DNA from: Frigoribacterium sp. Leaf263
GTDB taxonomy: Bacteria; Actinomycetota; Actinomycetes; Actinomycetales; Microbacteriaceae
Assembly: GCF_001422285.1 (NCBI RefSeq)
Contig: NZ_LMMO01000008.1
Coordinates: forward strand, 1-61,226
Reading direction: 5' to 3'
Length of the DNA: 61,226 nt
Notes under the pieces: generated by a model
Databases searched by the model: none
What the model was told of the DNA's origin: nothing
What the model saw: the letters and a program-made list of their open reading frames with translations, nothing else
Made by a program: the position numbers and the translations under genes
Shown here: positions 41,813 through 52,423 of the stretch, piece after piece
How the letters are laid out: every line of letters begins with the position of its first letter
Position numbering within the stretch: position 1 is the first letter of the stretch

Positions 41813-43051
41813 ATGACCAGCATCAGGCAGCGGGTGCTCCGCGCCTTCCTCAGGAGTCGGTACAGGGTCGTCGACGACCTCAGGATGCGGCCCCGCCCCG
41901 ACGACGACCCGCACGTCCACGCCCCCGGCGTCGACCCCGACCGCGTGCTGGTCTTCGGCAACGGCCCCGCCGTGGGCTGGGGCGTCCGATGCCACGACCT
42001 CGCGATCCCCGGGCATCTCGCCCGGCGGCTCTCGACGCTGACCGGCCGCGGCGCCGACGTGGACGTCGTCGCCGACCCGGACATGACCATCGAGCACGCC
42101 GCCGACCACCTCCCCGACCGGGAGCTCTGCGGCTACGACGTGGTGGTCGTCGTCGTGGGCATGAGCGACGCCCTCACCCTGCTGCCGGCGCACAAGTGGC
42201 GTCGATCGCTCTCTCACCTGCTCGACGCCGTCGAGCAGGTGACGAGCCCCACGGCGAGCATCATCGTCGCCGGGATCCAGCCGCCGAGCAGCGTGTCCGG
42301 TTTCGGCGCCGTGCCCGGGGGCCTCGTGGATCGGCACGCCGCGCTTCTCAACGAGACGACCCGTGCGCTCTGCGCGACCCGGCCGACCACGCACGTCATG
42401 CCGGCGCCCGCGATGCCGGACGCCACCGACGCTCTCTCCCGCGACGCGGGGCGGTACCAGGCCTGGGGCTCCGCGCTCGCCGAGGTCGCGGCACCGCTCG
42501 TCGACTCGGCGCTGGCCGACGGGCGGAGCGCCCGCGCCTCCCGGCACGCGCCGCAGAGCGACGAGCGGCGGGTGGAGGCCATCCGCGCGCTGGGTCTGCT
42601 CGACAGCCCGGCCGAGAAGAGGTTCGACGACATCGTCGACCGGGCGAGGATCCTCCTCGGCACGCAGGGCGCGTCGTTCTCTCTGATCACCGACGATCGG
42701 CACTGGAACAAGGCCGTCTCGGGATCGTCGCGGATCGAGCTGCCCCTGGCCGACTCGTTCTGCGCCCACACGATCCGCAGCGGCAGGCCCCTGGTCGTGC
42801 CGGACGCCTGGCGCGACGACCGCTTCGTCTCGCATCCGGCGATCCGCTTCTACGCCGGGCACCCCATCGAGACGGACGACGGGGTGCGCATCGGCGCCCT
42901 CTGCGTCGTCGACGCCGAGCCCCGGGGCTCCGAGGGCGTCGATCTGGTGCTGCTGCGCGAGCTGGCCCTCGCCGTGCAGCGCGAGCTGAGGATCCGTCCG
43001 GGCGACGACTCCGACGCGTCGGACGCGGCCGGACGACTCGCGGCCCGCTAG
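41813..43051 (+). CDS. SGNH-hydrolase-like/GAF domain fusion protein
   Basis: A 412-residue protein of two domains. Residues 40-235 follow the SGNH/GDSL hydrolase fold (RVLVFGNGPAVGWGV, a VVVVVGMSDAL strand, late DATDALSRDAGRY), but the expected GDS nucleophile position reads GNG, so Ser is missing. Residues 255-400 are a GAF domain (RVEAIRALGLLDSPAEKRFD; FCAHTIRSGRPLVVPDA; IGALCVVD). It has no kinase, cyclase or HTH output, so it may be a sensor that binds a small ligand and acts through protein contacts. GGGAG precedes the ATG. A dispersed repeat copy (42532-42541) lies exactly in the linker between the domains (SARASRHAP). Confidence 0.7.
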   Translation: MTSIRQRVLRAFLRSRYRVVDDLRMRPRPDDDPHVHAPGVDPDRVLVFGNGPAVGWGVRCHDLAIPGHLARRLSTLTGRGADVDVVADPDMTIEHAADHLPDRELCGYDVVVVVVGMSDALTLLPAHKWRRSLSHLLDAVEQVTSPTASIIVAGIQPPSSVSGFGAVPGGLVDRHAALLNETTRALCATRPTTHVMPAPAMPDATDALSRDAGRYQAWGSALAEVAAPLVDSALADGRSARASRHAPQSDERRVEAIRALGLLDSPAEKRFDDIVDRARILLGTQGASFSLITDDRHWNKAVSGSSRIELPLADSFCAHTIRSGRPLVVPDAWRDDRFVSHPAIRFYAGHPIETDDGVRIGALCVVDAEPRGSEGVDLVLLRELALAVQRELRIRPGDDSDASDAAGRLAAR

Positions 43052-43055
43052 CGCC

Positions 43056-43403
43056 TCAGCGCCCCTGACGCTTCTTGAAGGGCTTGGGCTGGCCCTTGAC
43101 CGCCGGGGTGCGACCCTTGCCCTTGCTCGCCTTGGCCTTGCCGCCCGCCGGGGGTGCAGGAGGCGCGGGTGGCGTCGACGGGCTCGCCAGCTCGGCCTCG
43201 GCCACCTCGATCGCCGCCCGCCCGGCCTTGGTCAGGCGGTAGGGCGCCGCGTCGCGATCGAACAGCCGCTGCCCGAACTCGAGCTCGAGCGCCTCGATCG
43301 ACGATTCGAGCTTCTGACGCGAGATGCCGAGCTTGTCGGCGGCCACGGGGAAGTGCAGGACCTCGGCCGCGACGAGGAAGTGCCTCAGATGACTCGTCTT
43401 CAC
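43056..43403 (-). CDS. LysR-type HTH-only protein with K/P-rich tail
   Basis: A 115-residue protein whose first 70 residues are a LysR winged HTH (LRHFLVAAEVLHFPVAADKL, then LELEFGQRLFDRD). Instead of the usual ~200-residue effector domain it ends in a P/A/K-rich tail (PPAPPAPPAGGKAK; KKRQGR). The GTG at 43403 overlaps the stop of the ferritin-like gene (GTGA), so it is the last gene of that operon. It may regulate the ether-lipid cluster without a ligand domain. A dispersed repeat copy (43159-43168) lies at the start of the tail. Confidence 0.75.
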   Translation of the reverse strand: MKTSHLRHFLVAAEVLHFPVAADKLGISRQKLESSIEALELEFGQRLFDRDAAPYRLTKAGRAAIEVAEAELASPSTPPAPPAPPAGGKAKASKGKGRTPAVKGQPKPFKKRQGR

Positions 43404-44236
43404 GCGGTGGCGACCGACCCGTTCGCCGACGGCGCGGCGCCGTCGGCGCGCACGCCCAGGCCGTCGAGCGCCTTCTGGAAGATGGTCAGCCCGCTCATCC
43501 CCGGGAGGTTCGAGATGTTCTGGTCGAGCTTCGCGGCGGCCTTGCGACCGTCGACGCCGCTCATCAGCTGACCGAAGACGAACCTCACGTCGTCGAGCTC
43601 CATGATGGACGACCCGACCGGGGCCCACACCTTCGAGAGCAGGAAGCGCGTGAGCTTCTGCGCCTTCTTGCTCTTCATCAGGCGCTCTCGGGCCTGCGAC
43701 ACGTAGAAGGCCACGTGCCGCGCCTCCTGCTTGGCGATGCGTCGCAGCAGCTCGGCGAGCACCGGGTCCTGCTCGAGCTCGGCCATGCGCTTGTAGGCGG
43801 CGACGGCGGAGTACTCGTTGGCAGCGCCCCACGACATGTGGACGGCCACGAAGTCGGAGCCGACGAACTTGCCGAGCAGACCCTGCTTGACGGGGTCGAG
43901 GCGGTCGCGCCAGCCGAGCTTCAGGCGGTTCGCCCGCAGCTGGTCGTAGTCGACCTTGATGTCGTGCACCTCGAGGATGGCGGCGAGGGCCTCGCCGTGC
44001 CAGAACTCCTCGCGGTTCCACATCGTCATGAAGGTCGACACGTCGTCCTCTTTGTGCGAGGGCGTCGTCAGCAGGTCCCGGGTGTAGCAGACCGTGTGGT
44101 ACTCGACGTCGGCCATGTACCGCAGGGTGCGCAGCGAATCGGCCGACAGGGGGTTCTTCTTGAAGTGGTCGAGGTCGAGGTCGTCCCACGTGATCCGCTC
44201 GCTGGTCGCGGCGAACTTGTCGATGTCGAATGCCAT
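43400..44236 (-). CDS. Ferritin-like diiron protein with complete ligand set
   Basis: A 278-residue helical protein. Candidate diiron ligands read in order: Glu45 (VEYHT), Glu77-x-x-His80 (EEFWH), Glu141 (ANEYSA), Glu171-x-x-His174 (EARH), the E/ExxH/E/ExxH pattern of acyl-ACP desaturase and related diiron oxidases. An O2-dependent desaturation or hydroxylation of a lipid chain is therefore plausible. In this cluster the best guess is conversion of an alkyl to an alkenyl (vinyl) ether, or fatty-chain desaturation. It is encoded between the FAR-HAD gene and the LysR-HTH gene. ATG 44236 lies 23 bp after the FAR-HAD stop. Confidence 0.78.
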   Translation of the reverse strand: MAFDIDKFAATSERITWDDLDLDHFKKNPLSADSLRTLRYMADVEYHTVCYTRDLLTTPSHKEDDVSTFMTMWNREEFWHGEALAAILEVHDIKVDYDQLRANRLKLGWRDRLDPVKQGLLGKFVGSDFVAVHMSWGAANEYSAVAAYKRMAELEQDPVLAELLRRIAKQEARHVAFYVSQARERLMKSKKAQKLTRFLLSKVWAPVGSSIMELDDVRFVFGQLMSGVDGRKAAAKLDQNISNLPGMSGLTIFQKALDGLGVRADGAAPSANGSVATA

Positions 44237-44259
44237 GCCGTGTTCAGGAGGCGCGGGCG

Positions 44260-46590
44260 TCAGGCCCTGCCTCCGTCTCCTTTCGCTGTGATGCCGCCAC
44301 GAGTCCAGTCGCGGATGCTCCATCTTCTTCGGAGCGCTTCGCGTGCGAGATTGGCGTCGGGGTTCACGGCTGACGGGTTGCCGAGGAGCTCGAGCCAGAC
44401 GAGGTCGGCGTGGGAGTCACCGTATCCGTACGAACCTGCGAGATCGACCCCCCGTTCGGTCGCGTACTGCGTGAGCCAGGCGGCTCGCGCCTCGTCGACG
44501 AGCGGGGGCTGCGCGAGGTACCCGGTGTACACGCCGTCACGCGAGTGCATGGTGCTCGCGACGACCTCGTCGAAGAGCGACGCGAGCGGGGCGGCGAGCG
44601 TGCCGATCGACCCGGTCACCAGCACGGTGCGGTGACCGGCGGCCCGGTGCTCGGCGATCCGCGCGAGGGCGTCGGGCAGGGTGTGCCGTCGCACCGTCTC
44701 CGCGTAGCCGCTCGACGAGACGACGTTCTGCAGCCGCGAGACGGGCATGCCGCTGTAGCGCCGCAGGAACGATCGGATGAACTCGCCGCGGTCACGGGCG
44801 TCGGCCCGCAGATAGGCCGGCAGGCCGGTCAGCAGACTCGCGACCTCGCCGGGCCACGCCGCCTTGCGGAACCCGTTCGAGCGGACCCACAGGTACTGCT
44901 CGACGATGTTCGAGTCGAGCACGGTCCCCTCGAGGTCGAAGACGGCGACGACGTCGTCGCGCCGGGGCAGCGCCTTGGTGTCGGCGACCGCGCCGGCGGC
45001 CGCCGGGCGCACCGAGAACGCGCGCGTCATCGCCGTGATCGACGGGAAGTGGACGGTCTGGAAGTAGTCCTCCCAGTCGATGTCGGTCACGTCGAAGCCG
45101 ATGCCGGCCGGCGATCCCGCCGGCAGGCCGGCGTGGAGGGCGCGGGTGCGACGGTCGTCGAAGATGATCTCGGACTGCACGTAGTGCCGGTAGAGGTCGG
45201 TCAGGCTCTGCAGCGACTCGAGATCGCCGCGGCGGGTCTGCACGGCCGTCAGCGCGCTGCGGGTGCGCGCGTTCGACGGCAGGCGCGTGAGCACCCTCTC
45301 GCGCAGGTCGTTCGTGCGCTGCTTCATGCGGATGGCGCCCTCGACCTTGCGCACCCCCGGGAAGTTCCAGGTCGGCACCGGGATCGACGTGTGCTCGTCG
45401 CGCGGCAGGGGGTTCGCGGTGAAGAACGTGTTGAGGTTCTCGAACATCCGCAGGATCGGGAACGGGTTGCTGTTGCCCGACGCCACATGGAAGTACTGCG
45501 CGTCGCCGGCGGGCTCCGAGCCGGACCCGGCGGACTCCGAGGAGGCGCGGGTCGGGTTCGCCGCGACCGCCAGGATGACGTTCACCACGAAGTCGACCGG
45601 CACGACGTCGAGCACGCTGTCGGGAACCCCGGGGAACTCGGGCAGCAGACCCCTGGCGTACGACATGATCAGCGGGTCGGCGACCTTGAAGCCGTCGATC
45701 CACCCCGGGAAGGGATGGCGCAGGGCGCTCTCGACGATGGCCGGGCGCACGACCGAGAGGCGGTGGCCCTTCGCGGCCCAGAGCTCCTCGGCGGCGCGCT
45801 CGGCGAAGGCCTTCGTCAGCGTGTAGACGTCCGTCCAGCCGAGGGTCTCGGCTCGGGTGCGCCCGTAGTCGACGAGACGGGCGGCGACCCAGGCGACCCG
45901 CGCCTCCTCGGCTGCGGTCGAGACGGCCTGCGGGCCGGTCTTGCCGTGACCCGTCCGACCCTCGGCCAGGAACCGGCGGAGGGTCTCGGGTTGACGCGAC
46001 GCGGCCTCGACCCGCGCGCGGGCGTCGCGCGCCGCGGCGTACTCGGCACGCCAGTCGACCTCGTGCGTGAGCGCCGACTCGGGGAAGACGCCCTTGCGGA
46101 TGCCGCCGACGTAGGCCGTCGAGACGTGCACGACGTGCGGGTCGCCGCCGGCCCGGCCGAGGGCCTCGTACAGACCGACGGCGCCGCCGACGTTGGTGTC
46201 GAACGCCTGGTCGATCGGCGGATCGAACGACACCGTCGAGGCGCTGTGGATGACCACGTCGAGGTCGGCGGGCAGATCGGGCAGCGATCCGAGCCCGCTC
46301 TCGACGACCCGGAGGCGCTCGGTCAGCGCCCGCTCGACCTCGGCCGGTCCGACGCGGTCGCGCCACGTGGCGAACACCGGCTTCTTGAGCAGGTGCCGCA
46401 GGCGACCGAGGGCCGGGGTGCCCGCCTTGGGGCGGATGAGCAGCGTCACGGTCGTGTCGGGGTGCGTCGACAGGAGACGCTCGAGGATGGCCTGTCCGAC
46501 GAAGCCCGTGCCGCCCGTGAGCAGCACGTGCGACGAACCGAGGCTCGTCTCGGTCGAGCCGGGAGCGGACGAGGGCAGGGCGGTGGTCAT
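44260..46590 (-). CDS. Fatty acyl reductase-HAD-IB fusion
   Basis: A 776-residue two-domain protein. Residues 15-530 are an extended SDR/male-sterility-type acyl reductase: LLTGGTGFVGQAILERLL near 24-41 (NADPH), VHVSTAYV near 150, and YTLTKAFAE near 260 (YxxxK). It would reduce fatty acyl-CoA to aldehyde or alcohol. Residues 560-770 are a HAD-IB domain: VAVFDLEGTVLDS (motif I), VLVTGS (motif II) and YGYGDSHADL (motif IV). Motif I reads DxE where HAD phosphatases usually have DxD. A linker copy of the dispersed repeat (45541-45550, NPTRASSESAG) interrupts the reductase domain near residue 348. The start overlaps the second ferritin-like gene (ATGA). Confidence 0.82.
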   Translation of the reverse strand: MTTALPSSAPGSTETSLGSSHVLLTGGTGFVGQAILERLLSTHPDTTVTLLIRPKAGTPALGRLRHLLKKPVFATWRDRVGPAEVERALTERLRVVESGLGSLPDLPADLDVVIHSASTVSFDPPIDQAFDTNVGGAVGLYEALGRAGGDPHVVHVSTAYVGGIRKGVFPESALTHEVDWRAEYAAARDARARVEAASRQPETLRRFLAEGRTGHGKTGPQAVSTAAEEARVAWVAARLVDYGRTRAETLGWTDVYTLTKAFAERAAEELWAAKGHRLSVVRPAIVESALRHPFPGWIDGFKVADPLIMSYARGLLPEFPGVPDSVLDVVPVDFVVNVILAVAANPTRASSESAGSGSEPAGDAQYFHVASGNSNPFPILRMFENLNTFFTANPLPRDEHTSIPVPTWNFPGVRKVEGAIRMKQRTNDLRERVLTRLPSNARTRSALTAVQTRRGDLESLQSLTDLYRHYVQSEIIFDDRRTRALHAGLPAGSPAGIGFDVTDIDWEDYFQTVHFPSITAMTRAFSVRPAAAGAVADTKALPRRDDVVAVFDLEGTVLDSNIVEQYLWVRSNGFRKAAWPGEVASLLTGLPAYLRADARDRGEFIRSFLRRYSGMPVSRLQNVVSSSGYAETVRRHTLPDALARIAEHRAAGHRTVLVTGSIGTLAAPLASLFDEVVASTMHSRDGVYTGYLAQPPLVDEARAAWLTQYATERGVDLAGSYGYGDSHADLVWLELLGNPSAVNPDANLAREALRRRWSIRDWTRGGITAKGDGGRA

Positions 46591-47408
46591 GCGGTGAGCT
46601 TTCGTGTGACGGCGGATCCGATCGAGGGGTCGAGCCCCGGGAGCCCGGCGACGCGGTCGCCGACGGCGTCGGCCCGCACGTGACCTGCGGCCCCGCCGTA
46701 GACGATCGTGTCGAAGAACGTGCGCTCGGCGTCGGCGCGCTCGACGGCGCCGATCGGCCAGACGGCGGTGGCGAGGGAGGCGCGGGTCTGCTTGACCGCG
46801 CGGGGCGAGTCGTCGAGGCGCCAGCGCGACTCGATGTCGAAGAAGCGCTCGTGACGCGACTTGACGGTCCGGATGCGGGCGACGACGGCCGACAGGGCCG
46901 GGTCGGCGGCGCGCTCGACGAGGACTTCGTAGGCGTCGCCCAGGACCCACTCGTCGACGAGACCCGTGGTCATGTGCACCGCGACGATCGGAACGCCCTT
47001 GCCCATGGCCTCGATCGCCCGGGTGATCGGGCCCCGGCGCTCGACGGCGTCGGAGGCGCTGTGCCGCCGGGGGCCCTCGTCGACCTCCTTCAGGCGGGGG
47101 AGCCCGTGCGCCTGGAGCACGGCGTCGATCGCGTCGGCGATCCAGAACTTCTCGAAGGCCCATGTGACGAGGAACGCCGTCACCCGGGCGTCCTTGTGCG
47201 TCGCGGTCACGAGCAGGTTGCGCAGGTGCTCCATCGTGGCGCTCTCGAGGCGGCCGAGATGACGCAGGAGGCGCAGTGAGTCGTCGTCGAGGGGCGTCGT
47301 CGCGAAGGAGTCGAGCTCCAGCTCGTCGCGGAACGCGCCCTGCGCCGTGAGGGTGAACTCGCGGATGTCGAAGTCGGTGGAGTCGTAGGGGTCACTGCGG
47401 GTGCTCAA
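46587..47408 (-). CDS. Ferritin-like protein with degenerate diiron site
   Basis: A 273-residue paralogue of the 43400-44236 protein (matching AFLVTWAFEKFWIADAIDAV against TFMTMWNREEFWHGEALAAI). By alignment, Glu77 is replaced by Lys87, His80 by Ile90 and Glu171 by Lys183, while Glu55, Glu153 and His186 remain. Three of six ligands are lost, so it is unlikely to hold a catalytic diiron centre and may be a partner or scaffold of the intact protein. The TTG at 47408 with upstream GAGAGGA is the preferred start; no ATG lies before conserved sequence. First gene of the leftward operon. Confidence 0.72.
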   Translation of the reverse strand: MSTRSDPYDSTDFDIREFTLTAQGAFRDELELDSFATTPLDDDSLRLLRHLGRLESATMEHLRNLLVTATHKDARVTAFLVTWAFEKFWIADAIDAVLQAHGLPRLKEVDEGPRRHSASDAVERRGPITRAIEAMGKGVPIVAVHMTTGLVDEWVLGDAYEVLVERAADPALSAVVARIRTVKSRHERFFDIESRWRLDDSPRAVKQTRASLATAVWPIGAVERADAERTFFDTIVYGGAAGHVRADAVGDRVAGLPGLDPSIGSAVTRKLTA

Positions 47409-47480
47409 GACCTGCGATCCTCTCGTGACGCTCTCGTGTGGTGGTTCGGGCACGATGCACGCTGCGAGCCCTACAGACCG

Positions 47481-47486
47481 TATCGT
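47481..47486 (+). promoter_or_regulatory. -10 element of the rightward ether-lipid operon, probably leaderless
   Basis: TATCGT ends 7 nt before ATG 47494, which lacks a Shine-Dalgarno sequence, so the SDR mRNA is likely leaderless. The divergent region is only 85 bp, so both operons could share one control element. Confidence 0.5.
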
Positions 47487-47493
47487 AAGCGGC

Positions 47494-48273
47494 ATGGCAA
47501 CAGCGCTCGTCACCGGGGGCACATCCGGCATCGGAGCCGAATTCGCCCGCCAACTCGCCTCGCGCGGCTGGGACATCGTCCTGGTCGCTCGAGACCTCTC
47601 GCGACTCGACTCCTCGGCGGCCGAGCTGCGCGCGCTCGGACGGCGCGTCGAGGTCCTCCAGGCCGACCTCGGCGACCGCGCCGACGTCGACCGCGTCGCG
47701 GCCCGCCTCGAAGACGCCTCGGCGCCCATCGACCTCCTCGTCAACAACGCCGGCTTCGGCGTGCACACCCCGTTGTCCTCGACCGACGTCGCCGCGCACG
47801 ACGCGGCGTTCGAGGTCATGTGCCGCGCCGTGCTGGTGCTCTCGGGCGCCGGGGCACGGGCCATGCGCCTCCGGGGCCGTGGTCGCATCGTGATCGTGTC
47901 GAGCACCGCGGGCTTCATGACCATGGGCGGCTACAGCGCGATCAAGGCGTGGGCCACGTCGTTCGGCGAGAGCCTGTCGGTCGAGCTGAAGGGCACGGGC
48001 GTGGGCGTGACGACCCTGCTGCCCGGCTGGGTGCGGACGGAGTTCCATCAGCGCGCCGGCATCCGGTCGTCGTCGATACCCAACGCGTTGTGGCTCAGCG
48101 CCGAACACCTCGTGACCGCGTGTCTGCGCGACGTCGACGAAGGCAAGGTGGTCTCCATGCCCACGGTTCGGTACCGGGTGCTGTTCTGGTTGGTGAGGCA
48201 CGCTCCGCGGAGCGCCGTCCGCGCCGCCTCGGGACGCATCTCGTCGAGTCGGCGGAAGCCCGTCGAGCAGTGA
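47494..48273 (+). CDS. Short-chain dehydrogenase/reductase
   Basis: A 259-residue classical SDR: TGGTSGIGAEFARQL near residues 7-21 (NADPH), NNAGFG near 86, catalytic Ser in IVSSTAGF near 132 and YSAIKAW near 149 (YxxxK). In a cluster with an alkyl-DHAP-synthase-like enzyme it could act as 1-acyl/alkyl-DHAP reductase, the step before the second acylation; this is inference. The basic C-terminal tail ends SSSRRKPVEQ. The stop overlaps the acyltransferase GTG (GTGA). Confidence 0.85.
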   Translation: MATALVTGGTSGIGAEFARQLASRGWDIVLVARDLSRLDSSAAELRALGRRVEVLQADLGDRADVDRVAARLEDASAPIDLLVNNAGFGVHTPLSSTDVAAHDAAFEVMCRAVLVLSGAGARAMRLRGRGRIVIVSSTAGFMTMGGYSAIKAWATSFGESLSVELKGTGVGVTTLLPGWVRTEFHQRAGIRSSSIPNALWLSAEHLVTACLRDVDEGKVVSMPTVRYRVLFWLVRHAPRSAVRAASGRISSSRRKPVEQ

Positions 48274-49163
48274 CTCCCCGAGACAAGCGGGAGCACCCCC
48301 GCCTCGACGCCGTCGCCCAGCGTGCCGGCGACGTCGCCACCGACGCCCGCGACCGGTTCAGCTCGCGCCGGCACGCCATGGCGCGCTACGTCGCCCAGCG
48401 CATGGTGCTCAAGCCCACCATCTGGTCGATCACCGACGTCACCGTCATCGACCGCGACCGCCTCGACGGTCTCTCCGGCGGGTTCGTGGTCGTCGCGAAC
48501 CACTCGAGCCACCTCGACGCCCCGCTCATCCTGGGGGCCCTCCCTCGGCGACTCGCCCGGTACCTGGCGACGGGCGCGGCGGCCGACTACTTCTTCGACG
48601 TGCCGTGGCGCCGCCAGCTGACGGAGCTGTTCTTCAACGCGTTCCCGGTGCAGCGGGGCTCGGGGGCGCCGGCCTCCGCGGCCGACGCGACCCGCGCCTC
48701 CTCGGAGGGGGCCTCGGCCGGCTCGACGCCGCAGAGCTCGGCCCGACGCCGCGCCGCCGCCCGTGCCGCGGCGAGGGGACGCGCCGGGCACCCGACGGTC
48801 AGCGCCAAGTCGCTGCTGCAGCGCGGCTACCCCGTGCTCGTGTTCCCCGAGGGGACCCGCTCGAAGGACGGCGCGGTGGGGCACTTCAAGCCCGGCGCCG
48901 CCGCCCTCGCCTCGGCCTGCGGCGTGCCCGTCGTGCCCCTCGCGCTGATCGGCGCGAACATCGCCCACCCCCGCGGCTCGAACTGGCCGAGACCCGGCCG
49001 GCTGCCGGTCGGGGTCGCGTTCGGCGACCCCATGCTGCCGCTCGAGGGCGAGAGCAGCGCGGCCTTCTCGACGCGCGTCCGCGCCGAGGTCATGCGTCTC
49101 CGCGACGCCAACACGGCCCGTATCCTGGGGCCTGACAACCCGTCCGAAGGAGCACATCGGTGA
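48270..49163 (+). CDS. PlsC-type acyltransferase
   Basis: A 297-residue acyltransferase with NHSSHLD (HxxxxD) near residue 75, the FNAFPVQR block near 125 and FPEGTRSKDG near 193. Between the second and third blocks lies a low-complexity insert of about 45 residues (TRASSEGASAGSTPQ, RRRAAARAAARG) containing a dispersed repeat copy (48692-48701), which is unusual for this compact fold. It could acylate DHAP (GNPAT role) or alkyl-glycerol-3-phosphate. Both ends overlap neighbours by GTGA. Confidence 0.83.
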   Translation: MTPRDKREHPRLDAVAQRAGDVATDARDRFSSRRHAMARYVAQRMVLKPTIWSITDVTVIDRDRLDGLSGGFVVVANHSSHLDAPLILGALPRRLARYLATGAAADYFFDVPWRRQLTELFFNAFPVQRGSGAPASAADATRASSEGASAGSTPQSSARRRAAARAAARGRAGHPTVSAKSLLQRGYPVLVFPEGTRSKDGAVGHFKPGAAALASACGVPVVPLALIGANIAHPRGSNWPRPGRLPVGVAFGDPMLPLEGESSAAFSTRVRAEVMRLRDANTARILGPDNPSEGAHR

Positions 49164-50857
49164 CCGACGTCCAGCAGCAGAAGAGCGACACCGTCGCAGC
49201 CGTGAAGCACATGAAGTGGTGGGGCTGGGGCGTCGAGGGCGTCGCCTTCCACCACCACGACAAGCCCGCTTTCGCGCCGTTCGTCAAGAAGATCGTCGGC
49301 GTCGAGCTGTCGGAGGGGCACGACACCGGTCTCGACTTCGCGGACCTCGTCGTCCCGGCCTCGATCGCCGCCCCCGAGGTCGTCGAGTCGCTCGAGCAGA
49401 TCGTCGGACCCGGGGCCGTCGCCACCGACGACCACGACCGCGTCGTCCACACCTACGGCAAGAGCATCCGCGATCTCATCCGCATCCGCGCCGGGATCCT
49501 CGAGCGCGTGCCCGACGTCGTGGTCTACCCGGCCGACGAGGCCGAGGTGCAGAGCATCGTCGACCTCGCCGTCGCGTCCGATCTCGTGCTGATCCCCTTC
49601 GGCGGCGGCAGCAACATCGTCGGCAGCCTCGAGCCGATCACCACCGAGACCCGCACCGTCATCTCGCTCGACATGGGTCGTCTCGACCGGGTGCTCGACA
49701 TCGACGAAGACAGCGGTCTCGCCCGCATCCAGGCCGGCGGCCAGGGCCCCGACCTCGAGGCGCAGCTCAACGCCCGCGGCTGGACCCTCGGGCACTTCCC
49801 CGACAGCTTCACCCACTCGACCATGGGCGGCTGGGTCGCCACCCGCTCGTCGGGCATGCAGAGCGACAAGTACGGCGACATCGCCGACATCACCAAGGGG
49901 CTGCGCGTCGTGCGCCCCGGCGGCGTGCTCGCGATCCGCGCCGTGCCGAGCGCCTCGACGGGGCCGTCGCTCCGCGAGATGATCATCGGCTCGGAGGGGC
50001 GCCTCGGCGTCATCACCGAGGTGACCGCCCAGGTGCACCGCCTGCCCGAGAAGCGCGAGATCCTGGCCTACCTCTTCCCGTCGTGGCACGACGGCCTCGC
50101 CGCCATGCAGGCGATCGCCGAGAGCGACGCGCACCCCTCGGTGACCCGCGTCAGCGACGCGCACGAGACCGCCTTCTCGTTCGCGACCTCGAAGCCCGGC
50201 AAGGGCATCTCGCAGAAGATCACCGATCTGCTGCCGACCCTGCTCAAGGCGAAGGGCTGGGACGTCGACGCGATGTGCCTGTCGTTCATCGGCTACGAGG
50301 GCAGCCCCGAGCACGTCGCACGCACGCAGAAGACGGTCGCGAACATCGTCAAGGCGAACCGCGGCATGAGCGTCGGCACCGGCCCGGGCAAGCTCTACGA
50401 CCAGAAGAAGTTCGACACGCCCTACCTCCGCGACTTCTTCATGGACCACGGAGGCGCGGCGGACGTCAGCGAGACCGCCGCCCCCTGGTCGAAGCTGCGC
50501 GACGTCTCGTCCCGCGTGTACGCCGCCGCCAACCAGGCCTTCGACCAGATCGGCAAGCAGGGCTGGATCATGGGCCACCTGTCGCACTCGTATCACTCGG
50601 GGGCGTGCCTGTACTTCACGTTCGCCTTCGAGCACGGCTCCGACGCCGAGGCCGAGTACGACGTCGTCAAGCACGCCATCCAGCAGGCGTTCATCGACAC
50701 CGGCGCGACCGTCAGCCACCACCACGGCGTCGGCCTGGAGCACCAGCCGTGGATGTCCCAGGACGTCTCGCCCGAGGGCGTCGCCGTCATGCAGGGGCTC
50801 TTCGACTCCGCCGACCCGGGGCGGGTGTTCAACCCCGGCAAGGTGACCGGCGCGTAA
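49160..50857 (+). CDS. Alkyl-DHAP-synthase-like FAD-binding oxidase
   Basis: A 565-residue flavoprotein of the VAO/PCMH family resembling alkylglycerone-phosphate (alkyl-DHAP) synthase. It has VVYPADEAEVQSIVDLA and IPFGGGSNIVGS near residues 118-156 (FAD site), HSTMGGWVATRSSGMQSDKY near 218-237, which matches the conserved T-x-GGW-x-ATR-x-SGM stretch of that enzyme, and SHHHGVG near 520 (catalytic His region). The reaction would replace the acyl group of acyl-DHAP with a fatty alcohol to make an ether bond. The GTG start is coupled to the acyltransferase gene. D-lactate/glycolate oxidase-type activity is the alternative, but the motif spacing favours AGPS. Confidence 0.83.
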   Translation: MTDVQQQKSDTVAAVKHMKWWGWGVEGVAFHHHDKPAFAPFVKKIVGVELSEGHDTGLDFADLVVPASIAAPEVVESLEQIVGPGAVATDDHDRVVHTYGKSIRDLIRIRAGILERVPDVVVYPADEAEVQSIVDLAVASDLVLIPFGGGSNIVGSLEPITTETRTVISLDMGRLDRVLDIDEDSGLARIQAGGQGPDLEAQLNARGWTLGHFPDSFTHSTMGGWVATRSSGMQSDKYGDIADITKGLRVVRPGGVLAIRAVPSASTGPSLREMIIGSEGRLGVITEVTAQVHRLPEKREILAYLFPSWHDGLAAMQAIAESDAHPSVTRVSDAHETAFSFATSKPGKGISQKITDLLPTLLKAKGWDVDAMCLSFIGYEGSPEHVARTQKTVANIVKANRGMSVGTGPGKLYDQKKFDTPYLRDFFMDHGGAADVSETAAPWSKLRDVSSRVYAAANQAFDQIGKQGWIMGHLSHSYHSGACLYFTFAFEHGSDAEAEYDVVKHAIQQAFIDTGATVSHHHGVGLEHQPWMSQDVSPEGVAVMQGLFDSADPGRVFNPGKVTGA

Positions 50858-50902
50858 CGCCCGCCCGCGCACACCCGCGCCCGCGCCCTCGACGCCAGGG
50901 CG

Positions 50903-50966
50903 ATCCGCCACCGATTCAACACGCCGCCACCGGATCCGCTGGCGGCGTGTCGATTCCGTGGCGGAT
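50903..50966. repeat. Large imperfect hairpin 1 (27-nt arms)
   Basis: The left arm 50903-50929 and right arm 50940-50966 are reverse complements with about three mismatches and a 10-nt loop (CCGGATCCGC). It follows the ether-lipid operon and could terminate it. Its arms share the GCCACCGATTC motif with hairpin 2 at 51341. Confidence 0.75.
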
Positions 50967-51068
50967 TGCGTGCCGGTTCTCCCTCCCCAGACCGCGACGC
51001 CGTCTGCCTGTCCACAGCGGAGCCGAGGAGGTGCGGATCGCGCATCGACGTCGGACACGGTGGATGTC

Positions 51069-51329
51069 ATGGTCGGCCGGATCTTCTCCTCCATCATCTT
51101 CGCGGCGGCGCTCGGCAGCAGGAGCCGCGAGGCCGAGGCGCTGAGGCGCGATGCTCGGCGCGGACTGGCTCAGAGGGTCTGCCAAGGGGCCTTCGTCATG
51201 GCTGAGGATCGGGCTCGCTTCGATTCGACCGCGCGTCATCTCGTCACCCTGCGAGCGCTCCTGGCTGGACTCTCTCCGGGCACGATCGTCTCCCACGCGT
51301 CTGCCGTCGCCCTGCGGCGCGGCGCCTAG
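51069..51329 (+). pseudogene. Truncated AbiEi-like gene
   Basis: The 86-codon frame (ATG 51069; GTG 51060 also possible) reads LRRDARRGLAQRVCQGAFV, then LRALLAGLSPGTIVSHASAVAL, the N-terminal layout of AbiEi-like proteins (compare the complete protein at 33982). It stops just after SHASAVALRRGA, losing the remaining ~200 residues. The remnant lies between two large hairpins, suggesting loss by rearrangement at repeats. The interval 50858-51484 contains no other gene. Confidence 0.6.
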
Positions 51330-51340
51330 ACGTCGTCACG

Positions 51341-51400
51341 ACGCCACATCTTCGACAACCCGCCACGAGATCACGTGGCGGGTTGTCGAATCGGTGGCGT
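51341..51400. repeat. Large hairpin 2 (27-nt arms, perfect 17-bp core)
   Basis: Arms 51341-51367 and 51374-51400 pair around AGATCA; the inner 17 bp (TTCGACAACCCGCCACG) are perfect. It begins 12 bp after the AbiEi remnant stop and resembles hairpin 1 in the GCCACCGATTC-type outer motif. Confidence 0.8.
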
Positions 51401-51431
51401 TTCGGCGGGGCGGCGGCACAGGGGGCCGACC

Positions 51432-51454
51432 TAGGATGAGGGTTCGATTCGAAC
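51432..51454 (+). promoter_or_regulatory. cysK promoter with overlapping inverted repeat
   Basis: TAGGAT (51432-51437) is a good actinobacterial -10. GTTCG-ATT-CGAAC (51442-51454) lies at the expected transcription start, a suitable place for a repressor. The ribosome site GGAAGAGA precedes ATG 51485. Confidence 0.5.
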
Positions 51455-51484
51455 GCACAGACACCGCTCACGGAAGAGACTCTC

Positions 51485-52423
51485 ATGCCCGGAATCCACG
51501 CCGACATCACGTCCGCCTTCGGCGACACGCCCCTCGTCAAGATCAACCGCCTCGCCGGCGAGGGCGGAGCCGACGTCCTCGCCAAGCTCGAGTTCTACAA
51601 CCCCGGCGCCAGCGTCAAGGACCGCCTCGGCGTCGCCATCGTCGACGCGGCCGAGAAGTCGGGCGCGCTGAAGCCCGGCGGCACGATCGTCGAGGGATCG
51701 AGCGGCAACACCGGCATCTCGCTCGCCCTCGTCGGCGCGGCTCGCGGCTACAAGGTCATCGTCACCATGCCCGAGACGATGAGCGTCGAACGCCGCACGG
51801 TCATGAAGGCCTACGGCGCGGAGATCGTGCTGACCCCCGGGCCCGAGGGCATGCGGGGAGCCGTCGAGCGCGCGAAGCAGATCGTCGACGAGACCGAGAA
51901 CGCGATCTGGGCCCAGCAGTTCGAGACCGAGGCGAACGCCGAGATCCACCGCACGACGACGGCGCCCGAGATCCTCCGCGACACCGACGGCCGCATCGAC
52001 TTCTTCGTCGCCGGCGTCGGCACCGGCGGCACCATCACGGGTGTCGGCCGCGTGCTGCACGAGCAGGTGCCCGGCGTGCAGGTCGTCGCCGTCGAGCCCG
52101 CCGACTCGCCGCTGCTCAGCGAGGGCAAGGCCGGCCCGCACAAGATCCAGGGCATCGGCGCGAACTTCGTGCCCGAGGTGCTCGACCGCTCGCAGATCGA
52201 CGAGGTGTTCCCGGTGCAGCTCGACGACGCTCTGCGCGTCGCCCGCGACCTGGCGACGCACGAGGGGATCCTCTCGGGCATCTCGTCGGGCGCGATCATG
52301 CACGCAGCCCTCGAGATCGCCAAGCGCCCCGAGAACGCCGGCAAGCGCATCGTCGCGATCGTCTGCGACACGGGCGAGCGCTACCTGTCGACGGTGCTCT
52401 TCCAGGACCTCGCAGGCGCCTAG
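51485..52423 (+). CDS. cysK: Cysteine synthase A (O-acetylserine sulfhydrylase)
   Basis: A 312-residue PLP enzyme that joins sulfide to O-acetylserine. Lys45 in NPGASVKDR forms the Schiff base, SSGNTG (71-76) holds the substrate loop, and GVGTGGTITG near 178-187 binds the PLP phosphate. Length and motifs are those of CysK. cysE starts 1 bp after its stop, so substrate supply and use are co-transcribed. Confidence 0.95.
   Translation: MPGIHADITSAFGDTPLVKINRLAGEGGADVLAKLEFYNPGASVKDRLGVAIVDAAEKSGALKPGGTIVEGSSGNTGISLALVGAARGYKVIVTMPETMSVERRTVMKAYGAEIVLTPGPEGMRGAVERAKQIVDETENAIWAQQFETEANAEIHRTTTAPEILRDTDGRIDFFVAGVGTGGTITGVGRVLHEQVPGVQVVAVEPADSPLLSEGKAGPHKIQGIGANFVPEVLDRSQIDEVFPVQLDDALRVARDLATHEGILSGISSGAIMHAALEIAKRPENAGKRIVAIVCDTGERYLSTVLFQDLAGA

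Follow-up and report, generated by a model that had tools for sequence, protein, structure and literature searches.

The animal ether-lipid pathway (FAR1, GNPAT, AGPS, PexRAP and PEDS1; PMC9131029) combines fatty acyl reductase (FAR), acyltransferase and AGPS-type enzymes with a reductase and an O2-dependent vinyl-ether step. In the aerobic bacterium Myxococcus xanthus, the elb operon (MXAN_1676-1674), together with CarF, contains parts that resemble AGPS and FAR as well as acyltransferase and HAD parts (PMC9131029). Clostridial PlsA/PlsR, the only bacterial plasmalogen route described in the available part of PMC9702350, is reductive and O2-independent. Here we analyze a gene cluster at positions 43056-50857 of a 61,226-nucleotide stretch of DNA (the window; contig NZ_LMMO01000008.1) from Frigoribacterium sp. 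Leaf263, a member of the Microbacteriaceae. We read it, with a probability of about 0.6, as an aerobic ether-phospholipid (plasmalogen) pathway in two modules: a core that would form the alkyl-ether bond, and a ferritin-like pair, FerA and FerB, of which FerB would carry out the vinyl-ether step.

The cluster resembles the animal pathway in its FAR-, acyltransferase- and AGPS-type enzymes, its reductase, and the O2-dependent vinyl-ether step proposed for it. Unlike that pathway, it forms one gene cluster, its FAR is fused to a HAD domain, and no homologue of PF10520 (the CarF/PEDS1 family) was found. With the Myxococcus system it shares an aerobic host and the AGPS-like, FAR-like, acyltransferase and HAD parts; it differs in that CarF was not found in the family, in its domain fusions, and in holding the core and the desaturase candidate in one cluster. 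With clostridial PlsA/PlsR its proposed product has only the end-product class in common. We found no description of this gene set as a system in the open-licence literature, although subscription papers may hold one. The features of the locus are as follows.

43056-43403, − strand: helix-turn-helix (HTH) protein with a LysR-type HTH domain, 115 aa, ending in a basic Pro/Lys/Ala tail (Pfam HTH_1, 49.1 bits)
43400-44236, − strand: FerB, ferritin-like protein B, proposed catalytic diiron Δ1'-alkyl (plasmanyl) desaturase
44260-46590, − strand: FAR-HAD, a fatty acyl reductase fused at its C-terminal end to a HAD-IB phosphatase-like domain (Pfam and motifs)
46587-47408, − strand: FerA, FerB paralogue lacking a full metal site; proposed as a partner or scaffold subunit (TTG start)
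47409-47493, no strand: divergent intergenic region, 85 bp, presumed bidirectional promoter from its position
47494-48273, + strand: classical short-chain dehydrogenase/reductase (SDR), proposed 1-alkyl-dihydroxyacetone-phosphate (1-alkyl-DHAP) reductase (adh_short, 141 bits)
48270-49163, + strand: PlsC-type acyltransferase, proposed DHAP acyltransferase and/or 1-alkyl-glycerol-3-phosphate sn-2 acyltransferase (Acyltransferase, 72.7 bits)
49160-50857, + strand: flavin adenine dinucleotide (FAD) enzyme, homologue of alkyl-DHAP synthase (ADPS/AGPS), by similarity to 2uuu and 4bby

Core genes and the alkyl-DHAP synthase homologue

In the proposed pathway, FAR-HAD would convert branched fatty acyl thioesters to fatty alcohols and PlsC would acylate DHAP. 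The FAD enzyme would then swap the acyl group of acyl-DHAP for the fatty alcohol, and the SDR would reduce the resulting 1-O-alkyl-DHAP to 1-O-alkyl-glycerol-3-phosphate. This intermediate would receive a second acylation, possibly at sn-2 by PlsC again or by a housekeeping enzyme, and then a head group through normal phospholipid synthesis. FerB, as a soluble, acyl-ACP-desaturase-like diiron protein (ACP, acyl carrier protein), would use O2 to place a Δ1' double bond in the alkyl chain and so create the vinyl ether, with FerA as its metal-free partner in most lineages seen. We infer which substrates are used and in what order the steps run, along with the desaturation, a complex of FerA with FerB, and what the HAD domain does. 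The sequences themselves show the assignment to enzyme families, the catalytic residues of ADPS, the set of diiron ligands, and that the genes are conserved together and modular. The original prediction had called this a complete bacterial ether-phospholipid pathway; its ether-bond enzymes are supported, whereas completeness is in doubt because one PlsC must perform or share two acylations.

By sequence, the FAD enzyme (P0007) is a clear relative of alkyl-DHAP synthase, with the acyl/alkyl exchange itself as its predicted activity. Compared with ADPS on one side and lactate/glycolate oxidases on the other, it fell on the ADPS side, as had been proposed: It matches Dictyostelium ADPS (2uuu) across residues 65-562 at 398.7 bits (E 3.7e-118) and, at 289.5 bits, mammalian AGPS (4bby), whereas the scores for glycolate oxidase and D-lactate dehydrogenase stay at or below 80.4 bits, with their best stretches inside residues 72-343. 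Pfam assigns FAD_binding_4 and FAD-oxidase_C. Three residues named as important in Dictyostelium ADPS (R352, R447 and Y508; PMC3509576) correspond to R330, R424 and Y485, at a uniform offset of 3 relative to the chain numbering. Of 124 aligned orthologues, 122 retain each of them (the remainder being gaps and one A), a count whose component sets share some genomes, and the HHH motif is kept as well. The top NCBIfam match, GlcD, at 122.9 bits against a cut-off of 567.9, would suit a D-lactate/glycolate-type oxidase, in which case the cluster would be a catabolic or unrelated lipid operon. Set against the score and coverage of the ADPS match and the presence of the catalytic R, R and Y and the HHH motif, that identity was rejected, and we hold such a cluster to be highly improbable.

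Many genomes across the class (G236, G248, G272, G294 and others) carry members of a more distant ADPS group (32-39 % identity), which a score gap from 361 to 708 bits divides from the orthologues. The catalytic residues are equally kept in all six distant homologues examined, so they separate ADPS from oxidases and not the cluster orthologues from the distant group. The cluster is absent at the six distant loci examined (L085-L088, L307 and L308).

We surveyed a family sample of 199 Microbacteriaceae genomes, searching for ADPS with P0007 at E <= 1e-60. Matches in 59 genomes comprise 55 orthologues (at least 62 % identity) and four distant homologues (33-37 %), the latter being excluded from the orthologue and motif counts. 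The orthologues include one split in two matches (G135) and two with one internal stop each (G168, G176); the profile training sets exclude L070, L084 and the four distant homologues. FAR-HAD, SDR and PlsC adjoin the ADPS gene at 55 of 55 orthologous loci in an identical divergent layout, a linkage beyond chance. FerA and FerB flank FAR-HAD at 51 of these. Among the exceptions, a contig ends after FerA and before FerB in G113, the pair lies ~7 kb past FAR-HAD in G097 and G159, and no Fer gene was found in G101, whose genome is 85 % complete. The expected co-occurrence across the family is thus borne out for six of the seven genes.

FAR-HAD scores 153.4 bits for NAD_binding_4 (above the cut-off), 105 bits for HAD, and 26.7 bits for Sterile, the FAR C-terminal domain, below its cut-off of 35.4. 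Its GxTGF(V/L)G motif occurs at 55/55 loci and HAD motif I, F-D-(L/M)-E-G-T, at 47/55, with 8 unmatched by the pattern; some of the FAR-HAD and PlsC motif patterns left 4 to 11 of the 55 unmatched. NNAG, TGxxxG(I/L)G and a YxxxK-type motif are each present in the SDR at all 55 loci, and the PlsC of the window carries NHSSHLD and FPEGTRS. We regard the core as very probably an ether-bond (alkyl-ether) module.

FerA, FerB and the proposed vinyl-ether step

FerB carries a diiron ligand set of six residues, E/ExxH/E/ExxH, in 96 of 96 FerB sequences; this count (96 + 4) leaves out matches covering <90 % of the profile, and its sets share some genomes. We take this set to be the diiron ligand pattern of acyl-ACP desaturases. 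The predicted fold of FerB appears to be acyl-ACP-desaturase-like, and its nearest solved folds are acyl-ACP desaturases. Its match to Pfam FA_desaturase_2 (20.5 bits) falls below the threshold of 22.7, as all its Pfam matches are sub-threshold, and we describe FerB as a protein that would work like an acyl-ACP desaturase without filing it as an FA_desaturase_2 member. It is like stearoyl-ACP desaturase and mycobacterial DesA2 in ligand pattern and apparently in predicted fold, but differs from them in sitting among ether-lipid genes, in its usual pairing with a ligand-less paralogue, and in its sub-threshold family score. That paralogue, FerA, has three of the diiron ligands replaced in 24 of 24 rows and is therefore probably a metal-free partner of FerB. 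The FerA of the window has no Pfam match, and FA_desaturase_2 was found in 0 of 24 FerA sequences.

The FerB profile matches 60 of the 199 family genomes, G113 through FerA only. An ADPS orthologue and a FerB-profile match occur together in 54 genomes, ADPS alone in 1, Fer genes alone in 6 and neither in 138 (Fisher p 1.2e-40, uncorrected for kinship). The association extends to genomes without linkage. In genus g342, which lies beyond the family sample, an ADPS orthologue (61-62 %) is present in 12 of 12 tested FerB genomes; all seven fetched ADPS loci are FAR-HAD, SDR, PlsC, ADPS operons, and all four fetched FerB loci lie elsewhere, apart from the core operon and with no FerA. The core and the Fer genes are thus separate modules that co-occur strongly, even when unlinked. 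From such separable modules one can predict which genomes would form alkyl ethers and no alkenyl ones.

We asked whether described vinyl-ether enzymes could supply the final step instead. CarF/PEDS1 (PF10520) was matched in 0 of 199 family genomes and by none of the seven window proteins; the same search found it in 7 of 198 phylum genomes, so it works and the absence is usable. The PlsA domain DUF2229 (PF09989) is nearly absent from the family, with no match in the window's genome and one in 100 family genomes (G062, without an ADPS match), while controls match in 4 of 14. Unlike the membrane protein PEDS1, the desaturase proposed here would be a soluble ferritin-like diiron protein. On the combined evidence FerB is probably the vinyl-ether enzyme, and we lean slightly toward the further proposal that FerA-FerB is a third, evolutionarily independent one: a soluble, O2-using diiron heteromer unrelated to CarF/PEDS1 and PlsA/PlsR. 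If FerB makes the bond, the aerobic vinyl-ether step evolved at least twice, and an enzyme that is soluble should lend itself to study more readily than PEDS1.

Elsewhere among actinobacteria, PF10520 proteins occur in family f18 (L227-L231: G224, G328, G393, G382, G274) and in G327 of f47, taxa beyond those named in the available part of PMC9131029. A wider FerB-like family (96-294 bits) is likewise found in other families of the phylum (L119-L136).

Dimethylacetals and competing readings

Dimethylacetals (DMA) are the usual sign of plasmalogens. Aerobic Microbacteriaceae have been recorded as containing them from the year 2000 on, when Subtercola was described (cited in PMC7472656 and PMC5945732), and we found no gene attached to them in the open-licence literature. 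Reported i-16:0 DMA amounts to 17.0 % in S. vilae, 13.3 % in S. frigoramans, 11.9 % in S. boreus and 6.9 % in S. lobariae, and a-15:0 DMA to 3.2, 10.3, 11.0 and 9.7 %, respectively; Agreia has i-15:0 DMA only, at <=4 % (PMC5945732). In Frigoribacterium, a-15:0 aldehyde/DMA is reported in F. adelgis D8 and the F. faeni type strain and not in the F. salinisoli reference strain; F. adelgis D8 also has 17 % "C14:0 2OH" (PMC12823222).

These taxa can be compared with carriers of the cluster. Among the best 80 of 254 FerB relatives in a scan of named genomes, which covers carriers only, the six genes are complete at 64 loci (2 with ADPS split between frames) and contig ends cut 3. Full carriers belong to Frigoribacterium, Frondihabitans, Agreia, Glaciihabitans, Galbitalea, Herbiconiux, Salinibacterium, Labedella, Subtercola and Plantibacter. 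They include S. lobariae CGMCC 1.12976, A. bicolorata VKM Ac-1804, A. pratensis VKM Ac-2510 and F. faeni NBRC 103066, records we take to be type strains. The window FerB is 96 % identical to those of F. faeni NBRC 103066 (L148) and Frigoribacterium sp. CFBP 13712 (L147). The expectation that cluster-bearing strains contain DMA therefore agrees with publications on Subtercola, Agreia and Frigoribacterium, but not with those on Frondihabitans and F. endophyticum. If the FerA-FerB reading is true, it would explain the DMA of aerobic Microbacteriaceae. The cluster offers a gene set that is specific and can be deleted.

An alkyl-ether product is one alternative. The core would then make saturated 1-O-alkyl phospholipids, FerA-FerB would be occupied otherwise, in mid-chain acyl desaturation or in fatty alcohol or aldehyde oxidation, and DMA would have another source. 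FerA-FerB without an adjoining core in Agromyces and Leifsonia, a core without a FerB match in G101 and G555, and nearest solved folds that act on acyl chains all suit this view. However, it has to accommodate the strong ADPS/FerB co-occurrence, linked or not, and DMA that neither CarF nor PlsA explains. A mid-chain desaturase product is also not evident, since a-15:1 is reported absent in three Subtercola species, S. lobariae included, and as a trace in the fourth, despite much DMA (PMC5945732). We consider this alternative possible but unlikely.

The enzymes are also compatible with another ether or alkenyl lipid, such as a storage lipid, wax-like ether or glycolipid, in place of a membrane plasmalogen, with the HAD domain yielding a dephosphorylated alkylglycerol. 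This would fit the fusion of the HAD-IB domain to FAR, the DAGK gene after FerB in Subtercola, a DAGK-like match after FerB in Labedella, and several unidentified glycolipids in S. vilae (PMC5945732) and F. adelgis D8 (PMC12823222). Single DMAs of up to 17 % peak area in Subtercola, values not assigned to any one class of polar lipid, speak instead for a major membrane lipid (PMC5945732), and we judge a nonmembrane product improbable.

Several observations weigh against a plasmalogen pathway completed by FerB. The link from the genes to an ether lipid is a predicted one; DMA can also derive from aldehydes; and proteins that share a fold may catalyze different reactions. Of the 60 FerB-profile genomes, 6 have Fer genes but no ADPS orthologue: as a FerA-FerB pair in G025, G102, G079 and G142, as FerB with a weaker FerA in G057, and in G107, where a contig end cuts the cluster. 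Within this set, FAR-HAD had no match in G142 and G079. At 12 of the best 80 named loci, FerA-FerB or FerB is present and the rest absent within ~9 kb (Agromyces, Leifsonia, Glaciibacter, Humibacter and the metagenome-assembled genome (MAG) RYN_67, whose full cluster lies on a separate contig, L181). FerB accompanies FAR-HAD in G614, and neither G614 nor G672 (both genus g362) has an ADPS match. Distant FerB relatives in 18 genomes of other phylum families have no core gene in the fetched stretches, some of them short, except for one 76-bit SDR-like match. As for the phenotype, Frondihabitans, which carries the cluster (L158, L159, L171), is said to lack DMA and to have 14:0 2-OH as a major acid (PMC5945732); the F. 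endophyticum reference strain is reported without a-15:0 aldehyde/DMA (PMC12823222), and the cluster is present in F. endophyticum AS3.20 (L155); and Kineococcus has a-15:0 DMA (PMC7472656).

The Kineococcus report bears on Frondihabitans in a second way. In Kineococcus rubinsiae, a peak named "C14:0 2OH" by MIDI was a-15:0 DMA by gas chromatography-mass spectrometry, read by its authors as plasmalogens (PMC7472656), and by analogy the missing DMA of Frondihabitans may be a misnaming of the peak. If "C14:0 2-OH" in Microbacteriaceae is misnamed a-15:0 DMA, many species descriptions would change.

The original suggestion that the ferritin-like pair makes the vinyl-ether bond accordingly stays conditional, with co-occurrence, the FerB diiron ligands and DMA in its favor and the Fer pairs without ether-bond genes against it. 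FerA-FerB two-gene units with no ether-bond genes adjoining occur in Agromyces, Leifsonia and Glaciibacter (L160-L164, L166, L168-L170, L172; L117, L118, L295, L296). These units, whose few viewed neighborhoods contain no evident lipid genes, are the main puzzle for the proposed function.

Wider occurrence, layout and neighboring genes

Outside the family, the FerB profile matches 41 of 374 genomes in a class-wide sample. All six genes lie on one strand in G865, from another family of the order (L258), and genus g366 has the six-gene set, partly rearranged, at four fetched loci. At L252 and L256, PlsC was detected solely with the weaker PlsC2 query. G555 holds the core without FerB, and in three f93 genomes an ADPS orthologue stands with no other core gene in the fetched stretch; these four genomes were assigned to the class-wide sample by handle number, and no FerB is listed for them there. 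The conserved set, as judged from sequence, comprises six genes in soil and plant-associated actinobacteria.

A plasmid search with FerB returned one record, from Streptomyces sp. NBC_01450: a mobilizable plasmid of 2.35 Mb. It carries the six genes in the window's layout (L309:4813-12792), unannotated in the PLSDB table, which argues for transfer of the cluster as a unit.

Some loci contain further genes (L225:6596-8859; also L064, L070, L074, L080, L082, L210, L222, L254, L191). In Subtercola and Labedella, FAR-HAD and FerB are separated by a second PlsC and a LarA-like gene (Lar_N); G614 (L254), which has no ADPS match, shows this pair in the same place. Actinoplanes sp. NBRC 103695, one of the best 80 named loci, has FAR-HAD, FerA and FerB with lar-like genes between. 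There, genes reading as LarE, LarB (these named by context) and LarC separate FAR-HAD from FerA-FerB, and a LarA-like gene is found past FAR-HAD. LarC was found in 1 of 199 family genomes and in none of the sample's Subtercola genomes, so it does not account for the LarA-like protein.

The HTH gene, counted in the original prediction among the seven genes of the cluster, was found in no genus but Frigoribacterium and was rejected as a system component. It occupies the cluster position at 4 of 4 loci of the window's genus and 0 of 51 other family-sample loci, and one HTH-like match (44 bits, L047) lies away from that position. The named loci searched, which exclude L165 (a twelfth isolate locus) and two MAGs under the Frigoribacterium label, show it at 11 of 11 Frigoribacterium isolate loci and 0 of 2 Frondihabitans loci. 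We treat it as an accessory gene outside the conserved set.

Every one of the seven open reading frames (ORFs) proposed at 43056-50857 lies where it was placed, and the divergent gap is exactly 85 bp. The claim that all genes are coupled through ATGA/GTGA overlaps holds for four of five junctions, with 4-base overlaps at FerA/FAR-HAD, FerB/HTH, SDR/PlsC and PlsC/FAD enzyme, and fails between FAR-HAD and FerB, which are separated by 23 bp. The divergent promoter is presumed from position only; a sigma-70 consensus scan of 42900-51600, including the 85-bp gap, gave no match. Downstream of the cluster, ORFs read by eye like a cysteine synthase (51485-52423) and a serine acetyltransferase (end 52973).

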